Assembly (NCBI RefSeq): GCF_000152805.1
Contig: NZ_CH902578.1
Coordinates: 509,173-573,172, forward strand
DNA length: 64,000 nt
From: Maritimibacter alkaliphilus HTCC2654
GTDB taxonomy: Bacteria > Pseudomonadota > Alphaproteobacteria > Rhodobacterales > Rhodobacteraceae
Direction: 5' to 3'
The notes beneath the pieces are model-generated. The model saw nothing but the letters and a program-made list of their open reading frames with translations. It did no database searches and was not told where the DNA came from. Position 1 is the first letter of the stretch. Every line of letters starts with the position of its first letter. This document shows, piece after piece, positions 18,178 to 22,841 of the stretch. The position numbers were made by a program, and so were the translations under genes.

Positions 18178-18741
18178 TTACTCGGCCCCACGCGACAGGG
18201 CAGCGACCCCGGTGCGCGCCATTTCGACCAGGCCGAGCGGGCGCATGAGGTCCGCGAAGGCGTCGATCTTGTCCGGCGCACCCGTCAGTTCGAAGACGAA
18301 GCTTTCCAGCGTGGAATCCACCGCATTGGCCCGGAAAATGTCGGCCATGCGCAGGGCCTCGACCCGTTTTTCGCCAGTGCCCGCCACTTTGAAGAGCGCG
18401 AGTTCCCGTTCGACCGAAGCACCTTCGACCGTCAGGTCATGCACCCGGTGCACCGGCACGATCCGCCCGAGCTGGGCCTTGATCTGTTCGATCACCGCAG
18501 GTGTCCCACCCGTGACGATGGTGATGCGCGACTGGTGCCCGGTGTGGTCGACCTCGGCCACGGTCAGCGAGTCGATGTTGTAACCACGGCCCGAAAACAG
18601 CCCGATCACGCGCGCCAGCACACCCGGTTCGTTGTCCACGATCACCGCCAGCGTATGCGTCTCGACGATATCCGAATTCGGATCGCGCAGGTCATAGGCC
18701 GACTTCTTGGAGGAGCCTTTTTTGATCTTGAGAGCGTTCAT
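18178..18741 (-). CDS. ilvN: Acetolactate synthase small (regulatory) subunit
   Basis: A 187-residue regulatory subunit of acetohydroxyacid synthase. The N-terminal ACT domain (T-L-A-V-I-V-D-N-E-P-G-V-L-A-R-V-I-G-L-F-S, about 30-105) binds valine for feedback inhibition, followed by a second ACT-like C-terminal domain. It starts 12 bp after the ilvI stop and is co-transcribed with it from the attenuated promoter upstream of ilvI. A bidirectional terminator follows. Length and motifs are typical of IlvN/IlvH. Confidence 0.95.
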   Translation of the reverse strand: MNALKIKKGSSKKSAYDLRDPNSDIVETHTLAVIVDNEPGVLARVIGLFSGRGYNIDSLTVAEVDHTGHQSRITIVTGGTPAVIEQIKAQLGRIVPVHRVHDLTVEGASVERELALFKVAGTGEKRVEALRMADIFRANAVDSTLESFVFELTGAPDKIDAFADLMRPLGLVEMARTGVAALSRGAE

Positions 18742-18753
18742 ATCCTGTCCCCC

Positions 18754-20508
18754 TTACACCAGCACCGCGCCCGACGTGCCGATCGCATCGGCGGTCGAGG
18801 CTTCACCCAGAAGCATCTTGTTGTGCGGCTCGCCCGACGGGATCATCGGGAAGCAGTTCTCGTGCTTCTCGACCATGACGTCGAGGATGAAGGGACCGTC
18901 GTAGTCCAGCATCTCCTGAATAGCGTCGTCCAGTTCGGCGGGGTCTTTGACCAGCCGTCCCTTGCAGCCGAAGGCCTCGGCGAGTTTCACGAAGTCGGGC
19001 AGCGCCTCGGACCACGAATGGGAATAGCGTTCGCCATGCAGAAGCTCCTGCCACTGGCGCACCATGCCGAGGCGTTCGTTGTTCAGGATGAATTGCTTGA
19101 TCGGCAGGCGGAACTGAACCGCCGTCCCCATTTCCTGCATGTTCATCAGCCACGAGGCTTCGCCCGCCACGTTGATGACCACGCTGTCCGGGTGCGCCAT
19201 CTGCACCCCCACGCTCGCGGGCAGGCCGTAACCCATCGTGCCCAGACCGCCCGAGGTCATCCAGCGGCCCGGTTCGTCGAAGCCCATGAACTGCGCGGCC
19301 CACATCTGGTGCTGGCCCACTTCGGTCGTCACGTAACGGTCCATGCCACGCGTGATCGCTTCCAGCCGCTGAAGCGCGTGCTGCGGTTTGATGGTCTGGG
19401 TCGAGTTCTTGTAGTCGAGGCAGTTCACCTCTTTCCACGCGTCAATCTGCTTCCACCAGTTCCCCAGTGCCTCGACATTGGTCTTGCGCCCGCGCGACTT
19501 CCAGATGCGCAGAAGGTCTTCGAGCACGTGGCCCACGTCGCCGACGATGGGCAGGTCGACATGGATCACCTTGTTGATCGACGAGGGGTCGATGTCGATA
19601 TGCACCTTCTTCGAGCCGGGCGAGAACGCGTCGATGCGCCCCGTGATCCGGTCGTCGAACCGCGCGCCGACGTTTATCATCAGGTCGCAGTCGTGCATCG
19701 CCATGTTGGCTTCGTAAAGCCCGTGCATCCCCAGCATTCCGAGCCAGTTCTTGCCGGATGCCGGGTAGGCGCCCAGACCCATCAGGGTCGAGGTGATCGG
19801 AAAGTTCGTGGCATCCACCAGTTCACGCAAGAGCTGGCTCGCCGCCGTGCCGGAGTTGATGACCCCGCCACCGGTGTAGAACACCGGGCGCTCGGCCGCT
19901 TCGATCATCTCGGCCAGACGGGTGATCGCGTCGATATCGCCCTTCACCTGCGGCTGGTAATGTTCGGTGCGCGCCTTCTGCGGCTCGACGTAGGTGCCTT
20001 GGGCGAATTGCACGTCCTTGGGGATGTCGATGAGCGTCGGGCCGGGGCGGCCCGTGGTCGCGACGTGGAAGGCCTGATGGATGGTGTCCGCCAGCTTGTT
20101 CGTGTCCTTCACCAGCCAGTTGTGCTTGGTGCAGGGGCGGGTGATGCCGACCGTATCGGCCTCCTGAAACCCGTCGGTGCCGATCATGAAGGTGGGCACC
20201 TGACCCGTCAGCACGACGATCGGGATCGAGTCGAGCAGCGCGTCGGTCAGACCCGTGACCGCGTTGGTCGCGCCGGGGCCGGAGGTGACGAGCACGACAC
20301 CGGGTTTCCCGGTCGAACGGGCATAGCCCTCGGCGGCATGGACCGCGCCTTGTTCATGGCGCACCAGAACATGACGGATGTCGTTTTGCTGGAACACCTC
20401 GTCATAGATCGGAAGAACGGCGCCGCCGGGATATCCGAATACCGTGTCCACACCCTGATCCTTTAGGGCCTGAACCACCATTTTCGCGCCGGTCATCTGA
20501 CGTGTCAT
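18754..20508 (-). CDS. ilvI: Acetolactate synthase large (catalytic) subunit
   Basis: The ThDP/FAD-dependent enzyme that makes acetolactate or acetohydroxybutyrate, the first common step of Val, Leu and Ile synthesis; 584 residues. It starts with F-G-Y-P-G-G-A-V-L-P-I-Y-D, includes the catalytic Glu region in H-E-Q-G-A-V-H-A-A-E-G-Y-A-R, the F-Q-E-A-D-T-V-G-I-T-R-P herbicide-site loop and the ThDP motif V-A-G-E-A-S-W-L-M-N-M-Q-E. The start at ATG 20508 follows GGAGAG. Its leader encodes a branched-chain-rich peptide and a terminator/antiterminator pair, so transcription should be attenuated when charged Leu/Val/Ile tRNAs are plentiful. Confidence 0.96.
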   Translation of the reverse strand: MTRQMTGAKMVVQALKDQGVDTVFGYPGGAVLPIYDEVFQQNDIRHVLVRHEQGAVHAAEGYARSTGKPGVVLVTSGPGATNAVTGLTDALLDSIPIVVLTGQVPTFMIGTDGFQEADTVGITRPCTKHNWLVKDTNKLADTIHQAFHVATTGRPGPTLIDIPKDVQFAQGTYVEPQKARTEHYQPQVKGDIDAITRLAEMIEAAERPVFYTGGGVINSGTAASQLLRELVDATNFPITSTLMGLGAYPASGKNWLGMLGMHGLYEANMAMHDCDLMINVGARFDDRITGRIDAFSPGSKKVHIDIDPSSINKVIHVDLPIVGDVGHVLEDLLRIWKSRGRKTNVEALGNWWKQIDAWKEVNCLDYKNSTQTIKPQHALQRLEAITRGMDRYVTTEVGQHQMWAAQFMGFDEPGRWMTSGGLGTMGYGLPASVGVQMAHPDSVVINVAGEASWLMNMQEMGTAVQFRLPIKQFILNNERLGMVRQWQELLHGERYSHSWSEALPDFVKLAEAFGCKGRLVKDPAELDDAIQEMLDYDGPFILDVMVEKHENCFPMIPSGEPHNKMLLGEASTADAIGTSGAVLV

Positions 20509-20547
20509 GTCTCTCTCCGTGTGGGCGTCGCGCCCGTATCTCCGGTC

Positions 20548-20578
20548 ATAAAAAAGCCCCCGATTTTCTGTCGGGGGC
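20548..20578 (-). terminator. Attenuator terminator in the ilvI leader
   Basis: On the minus strand a perfect 8-bp stem GCCCCCGA / TCGGGGGC with a 7-base loop is followed by TTTTTTAT. It lies between the leader peptide and ilvI, so it would stop transcription before the structural genes. Its 5' arm overlaps the 3' arm of the alternative antiterminator (20576-20585). Confidence 0.9.
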
Positions 20579-20619
20579 GCATGGGGAACCTTCAGGGGTC
20601 CGTTACCGTCCCATGCGCC
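20576..20619 (-). promoter_or_regulatory. Antiterminator of the ilvI attenuator
   Basis: GGCGCATGGG (20610-20619, within the last codons of the leader peptide) pairs perfectly over 10 bp with CCCATGCGCC (20576-20585), which includes the beginning of the terminator's 5' arm. The two structures are therefore mutually exclusive. A ribosome completing the peptide covers the first arm and favours termination; a ribosome stalled at the Leu/Val/Ile codons leaves it free and favours read-through. Confidence 0.85.
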
Positions 20620-20650
20620 TATATCCTACGATGACTACAAGGCTTTCCAC
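20603..20650 (-). CDS. ilvI leader peptide (attenuation peptide)
   Basis: A 15-residue peptide, M-E-S-L-V-V-I-V-G-Y-R-R-M-G-R, starting at GTG 20650 behind AAAGGAG with 7-base spacing and ending in TAA at 20603. Five consecutive codons specify Leu, Val, Val, Ile, Val, the very products of the downstream pathway. Its position before a perfect terminator/antiterminator pair defines a classical ribosome-mediated attenuator. Confidence 0.9.
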   Translation of the reverse strand: MESLVVIVGYRRMGR

Positions 20651-20876
20651 GACCGCTCTCCTTTGTGGTGCGGGGACATTATGGGTCGGCTGTCGGGGCG
20701 TCAACGCCAAATGGCTGAATAAAGTGTCGCACCAGCGGTTTTTGGCGACATTTTCTTTCCTTTTGGCGGGCCTGAAGGGGGATTGTGAAAATGTGAGCGT
20801 GCTCGAGAGGCCGACTCGGGTGTTTTCAGGCGGGAAGAAACGCATCCGTGTTAGGGTTCGGTCGGATTTTACACGG

Positions 20877-20978: not shown

Positions 20979-22841
20979 GTGAAAGACCAAGACACCTCGA
21001 ACCTGTCGTGGGACGAATTCGACGAGATGCGCGACCCGCGCCCGGCGACCAATGATTTCGACGCCGTCGTGGAACGTGCCATCACCCGCCGCGGCTTTCT
21101 GGGTGGGGCGCTGGCCTTCGGCTCGGCCGCGACCGTTTTCGGTTCGGCCATGCTGACCTCAAGCCGCGCGCAGGCTGCGGCCCACGGGGGCTTCGGGTTC
21201 GAGCCGATCGACATCGCCACCGATTTCGACATCCACGTGCCCGAAGGCTACGAATGGAAAACGCTCGTGCGCTGGGGCGATGCGCTCTGGTCCGAAGCCG
21301 ATGGCGCCTATGACGCCGAGACCGGCGTTTCGCCCGCCATGTCGGACAAGGTGTTCGGTGAGAACACGGACGGGATGGAGACGTTTTTTGTCGATGGCAA
21401 GGAACTGATCGCCGTGAACTCGGAATACGTGAACCCCAAGATCAACCTTCCCGCCGCCTCGGACGGCACGCCGCAGAATGCGGACGAGGTGATGCTCTTG
21501 AAGAACCTTCAGGGCGTGACGGTCATGGAGGTCGCGATGAACGGCGGCACCTATGAGGTGGTGAAGGACAGCCCCTACAACCGCCGCATCACGCATGAAA
21601 CCCAGATGACCATGGACGGCCCCGCAGCCGGTCACGCGCTGGTGCAGACGAACGCCGACCCCGAGGGCATGAGCCCCAAAGGCACGATGAACAACTGCGG
21701 TTCGGGCAAGACGCTTTGGGGCACCTACCTGACCTGCGAAGAGAACTTCAACGGCTACTTCGGCGCGACCGGCGGTTATGACGAAACCGACGGTCTGTCG
21801 CGCTACGGCATCGGAGGCGAGGGCCGCTACGCTTACGAAAAGTTCGACCCGCGCTATGACCTGACCGCCGAGCCCAACGAGCCGAACCGCCACGGCTGGA
21901 TCACCGAGATCGACCCGACCGATCCCGAAAGCACCCCCGTCAAACACACCGCCCTTGGCCGCTTCAAGCACGAGAACGCCGAGATGGTGCAGGCCGCCGA
22001 TGGCCGTGTCGTTGTCTACATGGGCGACGATGAGCGGGGCGAGTTCATCTATCGCTACGTCTCGAACGGCACCTATGCCGAAGGCGGCTCGACCGAGGGT
22101 CTGCTGTCGGACGGTCAGCTTTACGTCGCCAAGTTCAACGACGACATGACCGGCGAATGGATCGCGCTGACCCCCGAAGCCACCGGCATGTCGCTGGAAG
22201 AAACGCTGGTCTTCTCGCGCATCGCGGCCTCGGCTGTGGGCGCGACGTCGATGGACCGCCCGGAATGGATCGCGGCGAACCCGCTCAAGGCCGAGGCCTA
22301 TTGCGCGCTCACCAACAACTCCAAGCGCGGCGGTGACGCCATGCCGGTGAACGCGGCCAACCCGCGTGAGACCAACGAATACGGTCAGATCGTGCGTTGG
22401 GCTCCGGCGGGCGACGACCACGGCGCCGACACCTTTGCGTGGGATCTCTACGTGATGGCGGGCAACCCGGCGGTTTACGACAACGCTTACGGCGGGTCCG
22501 AGAACGTCACCGACGGCAACATGTTCAACTCGCCCGACGGCATGGCGTTCGACAGCAAGGGGATGCTGTGGATCCAGACCGATGGCGACGATTCGAACGA
22601 GGGCGACTTCGCCGGGCAGGGCAACAACCAGATGCTCGTCGGGAACACCGAAACCGGCGAAATCGCCCGCTTCCTTACCGCGCCCAATGGGGCCGAAGTG
22701 ACGGGCCTGTGCTGGAACGAAGACAACACGGTCGCCTTCGTCGGCATCCAGCATCCGGGCGGTTCGTGGCCCGATGGCAACGGCAAGCCGCGCTCGTCGA
22801 TCATTCAGGTCTGGCGCACGGACGGTGCCCCGGTCGGCTGA
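20979..22841 (+). CDS. phoX: PhoX-family alkaline phosphatase (DUF839), Tat-exported
   Basis: A 620-residue periplasmic phosphomonoesterase that liberates phosphate from organic esters using iron and calcium. The start is GTG 20979 behind AAGGAG. A twin-arginine signal, T-R-R-G-F-L-G-G (Arg37-Arg38) plus hydrophobic core up to about 67, shows export of the folded protein, as known for PhoX. Conserved PhoX elements include N-S-E-Y-V, M-N-N-C-G-S-G, L-T-C-E-E-N and F-K-H-E-N-A. A Pho-box-like site lies upstream and a clear terminator downstream, so it is a single-gene unit. It separates from the opposed ilvI leader by about 330 bp. Confidence 0.92.
   Translation: MKDQDTSNLSWDEFDEMRDPRPATNDFDAVVERAITRRGFLGGALAFGSAATVFGSAMLTSSRAQAAAHGGFGFEPIDIATDFDIHVPEGYEWKTLVRWGDALWSEADGAYDAETGVSPAMSDKVFGENTDGMETFFVDGKELIAVNSEYVNPKINLPAASDGTPQNADEVMLLKNLQGVTVMEVAMNGGTYEVVKDSPYNRRITHETQMTMDGPAAGHALVQTNADPEGMSPKGTMNNCGSGKTLWGTYLTCEENFNGYFGATGGYDETDGLSRYGIGGEGRYAYEKFDPRYDLTAEPNEPNRHGWITEIDPTDPESTPVKHTALGRFKHENAEMVQAADGRVVVYMGDDERGEFIYRYVSNGTYAEGGSTEGLLSDGQLYVAKFNDDMTGEWIALTPEATGMSLEETLVFSRIAASAVGATSMDRPEWIAANPLKAEAYCALTNNSKRGGDAMPVNAANPRETNEYGQIVRWAPAGDDHGADTFAWDLYVMAGNPAVYDNAYGGSENVTDGNMFNSPDGMAFDSKGMLWIQTDGDDSNEGDFAGQGNNQMLVGNTETGEIARFLTAPNGAEVTGLCWNEDNTVAFVGIQHPGGSWPDGNGKPRSSIIQVWRTDGAPVG

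Follow-up and report, generated by a model that had tools for sequence, protein, structure and literature searches.

A probable ribosome-mediated attenuator before ilvI-ilvN in Maritimibacter alkaliphilus, with homologous leaders before Bcr/CflA-type transporter genes

The window analysed here, a 64,000-nucleotide stretch of the Maritimibacter alkaliphilus HTCC2654 genome, carries ahead of the acetolactate synthase genes an element that is very probably a ribosome-mediated transcription attenuator of ilvI-ilvN. This reading, proposed in the initial annotation, remains the best one, and is carried by a conserved predicted promoter, codons for Leu, Ile and Val in a short leader ORF, a bias towards GTA, a geometry in which the ribosome masks one hairpin arm, and the downstream genes. 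The exclusion between its two hairpins is a competition for one to three basal base pairs and not a choice between fully alternative hairpins. This short-overlap geometry and the copies of the leader before transporter genes are what goes beyond expected biology. The parts of the element and its neighbours are the following.

20676..20704, minus strand: predicted sigma-70-type promoter, -35 TTGACG at 20704-20699, 17-nt spacer, -10 TAATGT at 20681-20676
20658..20664, minus strand: Shine-Dalgarno sequence AAAGGAG of the leader ORF; a comparable purine run precedes many relatives' leaders (by eye)
20603..20650, minus strand: leader ORF, GTG start at 20650, 15 codons, peptide MESLVVIVGYRRMGR, stop TAA at 20605-20603; homologous peptides occur in relatives
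Codons 4-8 of the leader ORF, minus strand: control codons CTT GTA GTC ATC GTA (Leu-Val-Val-Ile-Val)
20610..20619, minus strand: 5' arm GGCGCATGGG of the leader hairpin (antiterminator), within codons 11-14
20576..20585, minus strand: 3' arm CCCATGCGCC of the leader hairpin, from the sequence and the minimum free energy (MFE) fold
20556..20578, minus strand: intrinsic terminator hairpin GCCCCCGA-CAGAAAA-TCGGGGGC, arms 20578-20571 and 20563-20556, 8 bp
20550..20555, minus strand: U-tract T6 (TTTTTT)
18754..20508, minus strand: ilvI, acetolactate synthase large subunit (NCBIfam NF006581, 1119.8 bits against a cut-off of 974, and TIGR00118)
18178..18741, minus strand: ilvN/ilvH, acetolactate synthase small subunit, 12 nt past ilvI (NCBIfam NF008864 and TIGR00119, both above cut-off)
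20979-22841, plus strand: divergent upstream gene, PhoX alkaline phosphatase (PF05787)

The leader ORF has its own ribosome-binding site and tandem codons for the pathway product; ilvI and ilvN/H, assigned with curated models, make the branched-chain amino acids that would be sensed. The 15-residue peptide with Leu-Val-Val-Ile-Val announced in the initial annotation was found exactly (ORF 20650-20603, codons 4-8), as were the perfect 10-bp antiterminator whose 5' arm falls within those final codons (20619-20610 with 20585-20576) and the perfect terminator with T6 (20578-20571 with 20563-20556, T6 at 20555-20550), which both the sequence and a scan place between the leader ORF and ilvI. The paired motif GCGCATGGG-N15-45-CCCATGCGC occurs at a single place in the whole 4.5-Mb genome, and the 121-nt stretch that holds the leader folds with a z-score of -3.78, none of 200 shuffles being equally stable. 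The promoter sequence predicts a transcription start at about 20669. A generic promoter scan did not have the leader promoter in its list, since agreement at 8 of 12 positions lies below the scan threshold, and an Rfam scan of the whole window returned no family at its gathering score.

A search for conserved leaders before ilvI in relatives, suggested in the initial annotation, showed the element to be widespread in the window's family, the Rhodobacteraceae. Thirty ilvI loci were gathered by protein search, 23 of them from this family. Those with GCGCATGGG and a rightly placed T-run (18 of the 30 loci, 18 of the 23 in the family) served as seed leaders, all from the window's family and including the window's own. 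A covariance model built on these 18 seeds, R1, was run on 198 genomes of the family (one per genus); at E<=0.1 it matched in 171 of them and gave no match in the other 27. ilvI lies downstream in 25 of 26 further loci (it was not confirmed at L056), and in the 18 seeds by selection. These 26 leaders, drawn from 33 loci (L036-L068) after removal of the window, five repeated genomes and L040, form with the seeds the set of 44 ilvI leaders used below. Family loci L015, L019, L020, L022 and L026 have different arms yet, by eye, a similar plan.

A best-match search of the 70 nt upstream of these 44 leaders gave TTGACG as the -35 box in 38 and TTGACC in 6, with a 17-nt spacer in 39. All 44 showed 3-4 mismatches out of 12, while shuffled upstream stretches showed 4 mismatches in 4 of 44 and 5-7 in 40 of 44. 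This conserved sequence is a predicted promoter for the leader ORF. The geometry of the hairpins is also constant: counted from the stop codon, the 5' arm lies at -13 or -14 in all 44 leaders, and the two helices overlap by 1 nt in 5, by 2 nt in 22 and by 3 nt in 17, never by 0.

Leu, Ile and Val are all found before the last five residues in 42 of the 44 ilvI leader peptides. The script that picked the leaders favoured Val/Ile/Leu content, ATG, a Shine-Dalgarno sequence, 14-18 codons and Arg-rich ends, which biases the residue composition, and it took an upstream ATG for L008; it gave no reward for the choice among synonymous codons. That choice is the strongest evidence on what the leader senses. 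GTA makes up 27 of 51 Val codons in the 18 seed leaders versus 23 of 784 in those genomes' ilvI genes (Fisher p 2.7e-23), and CTA 5 of 24 Leu codons versus 10 of 833 (p 2.8e-5). Over the 44 leaders, GTA accounts for 55% of 129 Val codons, against 1 of 255 (0.4%) in seven window genes.

The effect of ribosome position was modelled by mask-folding, in which the RNA downstream of the ribosome was folded. The ribosome covers 9 nt past the A-site codon, and its leading edge was placed there. The two hairpins had been described as mutually exclusive; this holds only for 20578-20576 (GCC), where the first three nucleotides of the terminator are the last three of the leader hairpin, and the MFE structure of the window has both hairpins together (7 bp and 8 bp). 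The probability of the terminator base in the window was 1.0 with the ribosome at the stop codon, 0.76-0.77 with stalling at codons 4-7, 0.98 at codon 8 and 0.83 without a ribosome, a state in which the model is still on the termination side. Over the 44 ilvI leaders the median was 1.0 for a ribosome at the stop, 0.80 for one stalled at the first branched-chain codon and 0.775 without a ribosome; the value exceeded 0.9 at the stop in 43 of 44 and fell below 0.5 at the first branched-chain codon in only 10 of 44.

The energy gained when the terminator's three basal pairs close was more responsive. In the window, a ribosome at the stop gave -9.2 kcal/mol and one stalled at codons 4-7 gave -1.3 to -1.4, compared with -8.5 for a stall at codon 8 and -6.0 without a ribosome. 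At the stall codon of largest effect, stop and stall differed by more than 2 kcal/mol in every one of the 44 ilvI leaders and by more than 5 in 32, with a median of 5.4; the difference rose with the overlap, medians being 4.5, 5.3 and 8.1 kcal/mol for 1, 2 and 3 nt. Since the closing energy changes with ribosome position and the overlap of 1-3 nt is never 0, antitermination is read here as a theft of the terminator's basal nucleotides: hairpin and masking geometry are present, with exclusion confined to the three shared nucleotides. Since the MFE structure retains both hairpins and the stalled-state probability stays at 0.76-0.77, we infer that antitermination would depend on hairpin closure at the polymerase and not on thermodynamic exclusion. 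The same fold and the same persistent probabilities (0.76-0.77 in the window, a median of 0.80 over 44 leaders) could be taken to mean that two neighbouring hairpins form a constitutive terminator without regulation, the small ORF being incidental. It would be very surprising, however, for such a terminator to conserve the ORF, the control codons, the rare-codon bias, the distance from arm to stop and the helix overlap all together.

In the attenuation mechanism that we favour, charged Leu-, Val- and Ile-tRNAs would let the ribosome reach the stop codon at 20605-20603, where its footprint would lie over the 5' arm at 20619-20610. With this arm covered, the leader hairpin would not form, the terminator would close fully and transcription would end before ilvI. 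Scarcity of any one of these charged tRNAs would halt the ribosome at codons 4-7 and allow the leader hairpin to form. This hairpin would take the three nucleotides at the terminator base; the basal pairs, which on closing must draw RNA from the hybrid at the U-tract, would then gain almost no energy by closing there, and the polymerase would read through. The rare GTA codons would make the wait of the ribosome sensitive to Val-tRNA.

The window leader belongs to an attenuator type already reported for alphaproteobacterial ilvIH/ilvBN. Vitreschak and colleagues are said to have predicted attenuation of alphaproteobacterial ilvIH in 2004. In PMC4117421, attenuation of Caulobacter ilvBN at tandem Ile and Val codons is attributed to Tarleton 1994; PMC1273637 and PMC2573895 credit Vitreschak 2004 with an alphaproteobacterial ilvB leader peptide and with a cis element of S. 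meliloti ilvIH, respectively. The lineage is not unexplored for this mechanism, which corrects the initial annotation. Features shared with the window are the operon, a short leader ORF that has branched-chain codons in tandem, and a terminator before the gene. The overlap of 1-3 nt was counted in the present analysis.

The likeness to the E. coli trp attenuator and to S. meliloti rnTrpL is that ribosome position chooses between leader hairpin and terminator, with a short peptide and tandem control codons. Unlike trp, the window shows no separate 1:2 protector hairpin, and the terminating ribosome would itself mask the antiterminator arm. The hairpin overlap in the trp layout is much longer than in the window leader.

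The surprise is that, in many other bacteria, what look like close copies of the switch precede an unrelated gene, one for a membrane transporter. R1, run on 385 genomes of the class, gave 24 matches at E<=0.1, of which 5 fall in the family, 12 precede a transporter gene (L069-L079 and L085) and 7 are chance-like. These seven, weak matches at L080-L084, L086 and L087 (E 0.004-0.09), were rejected as leaders and taken as chance, as no such plan was seen in the stretches read, which for L083 and L084 may fall short of the full match; a terminator alone is visible in L080, L082, L086 and L087. At a further locus, L207 (E 0.006), a terminator accompanies a Val-Val-Val stretch. For all ten proteins scanned out of the 12 transporters, TIGR00710 (Bcr/CflA efflux) was the best NCBIfam model, above cut-off in eight; the other 11 of the 12 proteins are 46-68% identical to the first.

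A profile search of genome contigs with an alignment of the transporter proteins returned 272 relatives, of which the best 80 loci (L090-L169) were retained. R1 matched 48 of these best 80 at E<=0.01 and 54 at E<=1, leaving 26 without a match; the 80 being ranked by likeness to the leader-bearing protein, 48/80 is too high a figure for the transporter group as a whole. All 48 matches are on the coding strand and end 11-114 nt ahead of the matched protein segment. Examples are a Kiloniellaceae locus (L099, 100 bits) and two from Paraburkholderia, a betaproteobacterium (L137, 80 bits; L134, 75 bits), together with Bradyrhizobium L149 and Sulfitobacter algicola L154. There was no R1 match at, among others, transporter loci labelled Gammaproteobacteria and Rhodobacteraceae loci L126, L153 and L163, the genomes of these last three having one strong R1 match elsewhere.

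Fifty-eight transporter leaders were analysed, 53 from the best 80 loci (L105 being dropped by eye) and 5 of the 12 from the class search, the remaining seven of which are the same as, or close to, loci in the best 80. Matched by the ilvI-leader model with up to 100 bits, they share the peptide plan (roughly MKxxIVVVGxxRRMDR) and the hairpins of the ilvI leaders; they differ in the gene downstream and in having fewer peptides with all of Leu, Ile and Val (11 of 58), Val being present in 58 of 58. GTA represents 51 of 159 Val codons in 53 of these leaders versus 60 of 1267 in the adjoining transporter genes (p 7.6e-23). The median probability of the terminator base hardly moves (n=58; 1.0 at the stop, 0.98 stalled, 0.99 without a ribosome), and the stop/stall difference, at the stall codon of largest effect, exceeds 2 kcal/mol in 47 of 58. 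Hairpin and terminator overlap by 1-6 nt in 43 of 58 and not at all in 15, which include the subset resembling Rfam family Atu_C8 described below. The -10 box ends 6-7 nt ahead of the start codon in eight transporter leaders, as in leaderless mRNAs.

Inspection by eye of the unannotated flanks of 12 loci brought out no recurring neighbour gene. Both kinds of leader coexist in Sulfitobacter algicola and in the family genome G234, which has L204 before ilvI and L206 before an MFS-like ORF; the peptide of L206 is MSFLNVVVSVRCVVR, and the ORF that follows looks, as read, like that same transporter. R1 matches once in the window's own genome, and no such leader was seen in the 400 nt upstream of its one distant transporter homologue (43% identity, E<=1e-30).

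The retention in the transporter leaders of the Val run and, mostly, of the Arg-rich tail, before a gene that resembles a drug exporter, would fit a leader that sensed a general slowing of translation, for instance when drugs that target the ribosome act on a nascent VVV-x-RR chain, rather than branched-chain starvation. We regard this as quite improbable: Leu, Ile and Val occur together in 42 of 44 ilvI leaders (against 11 of 58 transporter leaders), a rare synonymous codon is favoured, as tRNA sensing predicts, and the operon downstream produces these same amino acids.

Atu_C8 (RF02502), filed in Rfam as an sRNA of the Rhizobiales, is a recognisable homologue with Val codons, an GCGCATGGG...CCCATGCGC hairpin and a terminator. 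The window scores 17.2 bits against its gathering score of 50 and thus falls outside the family. Atu_C8 was above its cut-off in 1 of 142 genomes of the class and in 6 of 36 genomes of that genome's order, and a transporter gene follows it in five of these six (L187-L191) as well as in the sixth (L032/L085). When 20 loci were scanned with Rfam, 15 reached the Atu_C8 gathering score (11 chosen Atu_C8-type transporter leaders and L188-L191); transporter leaders L099, L115, L137 and L154 and the ilvI locus L003 stayed below it. Loci of the Atu_C8 type before the transporter gene are L110, L140, L141, L146, L152, L155, L158, L161, L164, L168, L085 and L187-L191.

Unlike in the window, where they overlap, the hairpin and the terminator of Atu_C8-type loci are set 8-10 nt apart, in 11 of 11 measured. 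Masking shifts the closing energy little there (medians of 0.4 to 2.7 by spacing). With no overlap and so small a change, the explanation by basal pairs therefore does not extend to this type. The homology suggests that Atu_C8 is an attenuator leader. A literature search that covered few subscription papers found no title or abstract start describing such a transporter leader or Atu_C8 by name.

For nine ilvI genes whose genomes carry transporter leaders, the sequence upstream was read. One leader is of the family type (L193, Sulfitobacter) and clusters with the family ilvI leaders, three are of the Atu_C8 type (L194, L196 and L197, from Devosia, Mesorhizobium and Paramesorhizobium), and one is Val-rich with other arms (L198, Bradyrhizobium); no leader was seen upstream at L195, L199, L200 and L201. 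The 11 Atu_C8-type transporter leaders have a mean identity of 0.711 to the three Rhizobiales ilvI leaders, 0.649 to 45 family ilvI leaders and 0.638 to 47 other transporter leaders, the Rhizobiales ilvI leaders being nearest in 11 of 11 rows. Within one genome, ilvI and transporter leaders are 0.70-0.72 identical, which does not exceed their average identity to other Atu_C8-type leaders (0.69-0.74). A tree of 106 leaders, built on short sequences, has 5 changes of gene label versus 35.1 in shuffles, a low number that is expected because the ilvI rows come nearly all from one family. As judged from sequence likeness, leader type tracks lineage more than gene, in these Rhizobiales only, and the ilvI and transporter leaders appear to have been copied or changed together within the lineage. 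The Rhizobiales ilvI leaders L194, L196 and L197 and transporter leaders L161, L158 and L110 have a common layout, with extra residues after RRMG and the terminator set apart.

The hairpin arms of the ilvI leaders are nearly invariant, with 5 distinct arm pairs among 44, which comes partly from seed choice by GCGCATGGG. Covariation was absent within the ilvI leaders (47 of 50 cells paired, a value reached by 1000 of 1000 shuffles); pairing held in 283 of 350 cells of the transporter leaders (79 of 1000 shuffles reach it) and in 330 of 400 jointly (17 of 1000), the count omitting the 11 Atu_C8-type rows. This weak signal is no proof of the leader hairpin.

Invariance of both arms beyond what pairing asks for, in a set of 44 whose 18 seeds were picked by the motif and whose other members came through the model built on those seeds, would suit a hairpin acting chiefly in trans, with the terminated leader as a stable small RNA, or its peptide, at work elsewhere and cis attenuation secondary. 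Such action has been published for the trp attenuator RNA and peptide of Sinorhizobium meliloti (rnTrpL/peTrpL), and the related Atu_C8 is filed as an sRNA. We consider this unlikely, as the inner arms vary in the transporter leaders while the GGCGC:GCGCC base is kept, as a cis junction would need, and as the 5' arm is coding; action in trans would, moreover, be compatible with attenuation.

Other pairings and a further ORF were also considered. In the window, the leader start (20636-20664) pairs over 15 bp with the terminator end, the U-tract and the following bases (20538-20558), a duplex of -21.2 kcal/mol that is part of the MFE structure. Support for it in relatives is weak: the ilvI leaders average -10.6 with their own partners and -9.7 with swapped ones, and the number of 200 swaps reaching the own value, relatedness being uncontrolled throughout, was 0 for ilvI leaders and 2 for transporter leaders, rising to 22 and 47 when pairing was counted strictly past the U-tract. 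A second ORF, which opens with an ATG in the hairpin 3' arm and in the window runs to the ilvI start, was inspected by eye there and at L003 and L004 and set aside: it ends prematurely in L003 and is out of step in L004, and its AUG is missing from several transporter leaders. In the window, CCCCTGA, which follows the stop codon, could pair as a decoy with the terminator 3' arm; by eye, this pairing is lost in several relatives, and it too was rejected.

The preferred reading can be widened, at about even chances, to one attenuator module that serves both ilvI and a Bcr/CflA-type MFS transporter. The transporter would be induced by scarce charged Val-tRNA, or by slowed translation, and not by a drug-sensing repressor; it would then be part of the regulon for branched-chain amino acids and might import Val or something chemically related. 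On this view Atu_C8 would likewise be such an attenuator, and the Rhizobiales copies would have changed together or been copied.

In the window, the element is expected biology, and it gives a checkable anatomy for a family-wide switch, in which one to three basal base pairs would be competed for instead of two fully alternative hairpins, with rare Val codons as the sensor. If Atu_C8 is indeed an attenuator leader, its transcripts would read differently in RNA-seq data. The transporter link merits follow-up: a group known just as 'drug efflux' gains a lead on its function from a homologous Val-codon leader at 48 of the best 80 of 272 loci.
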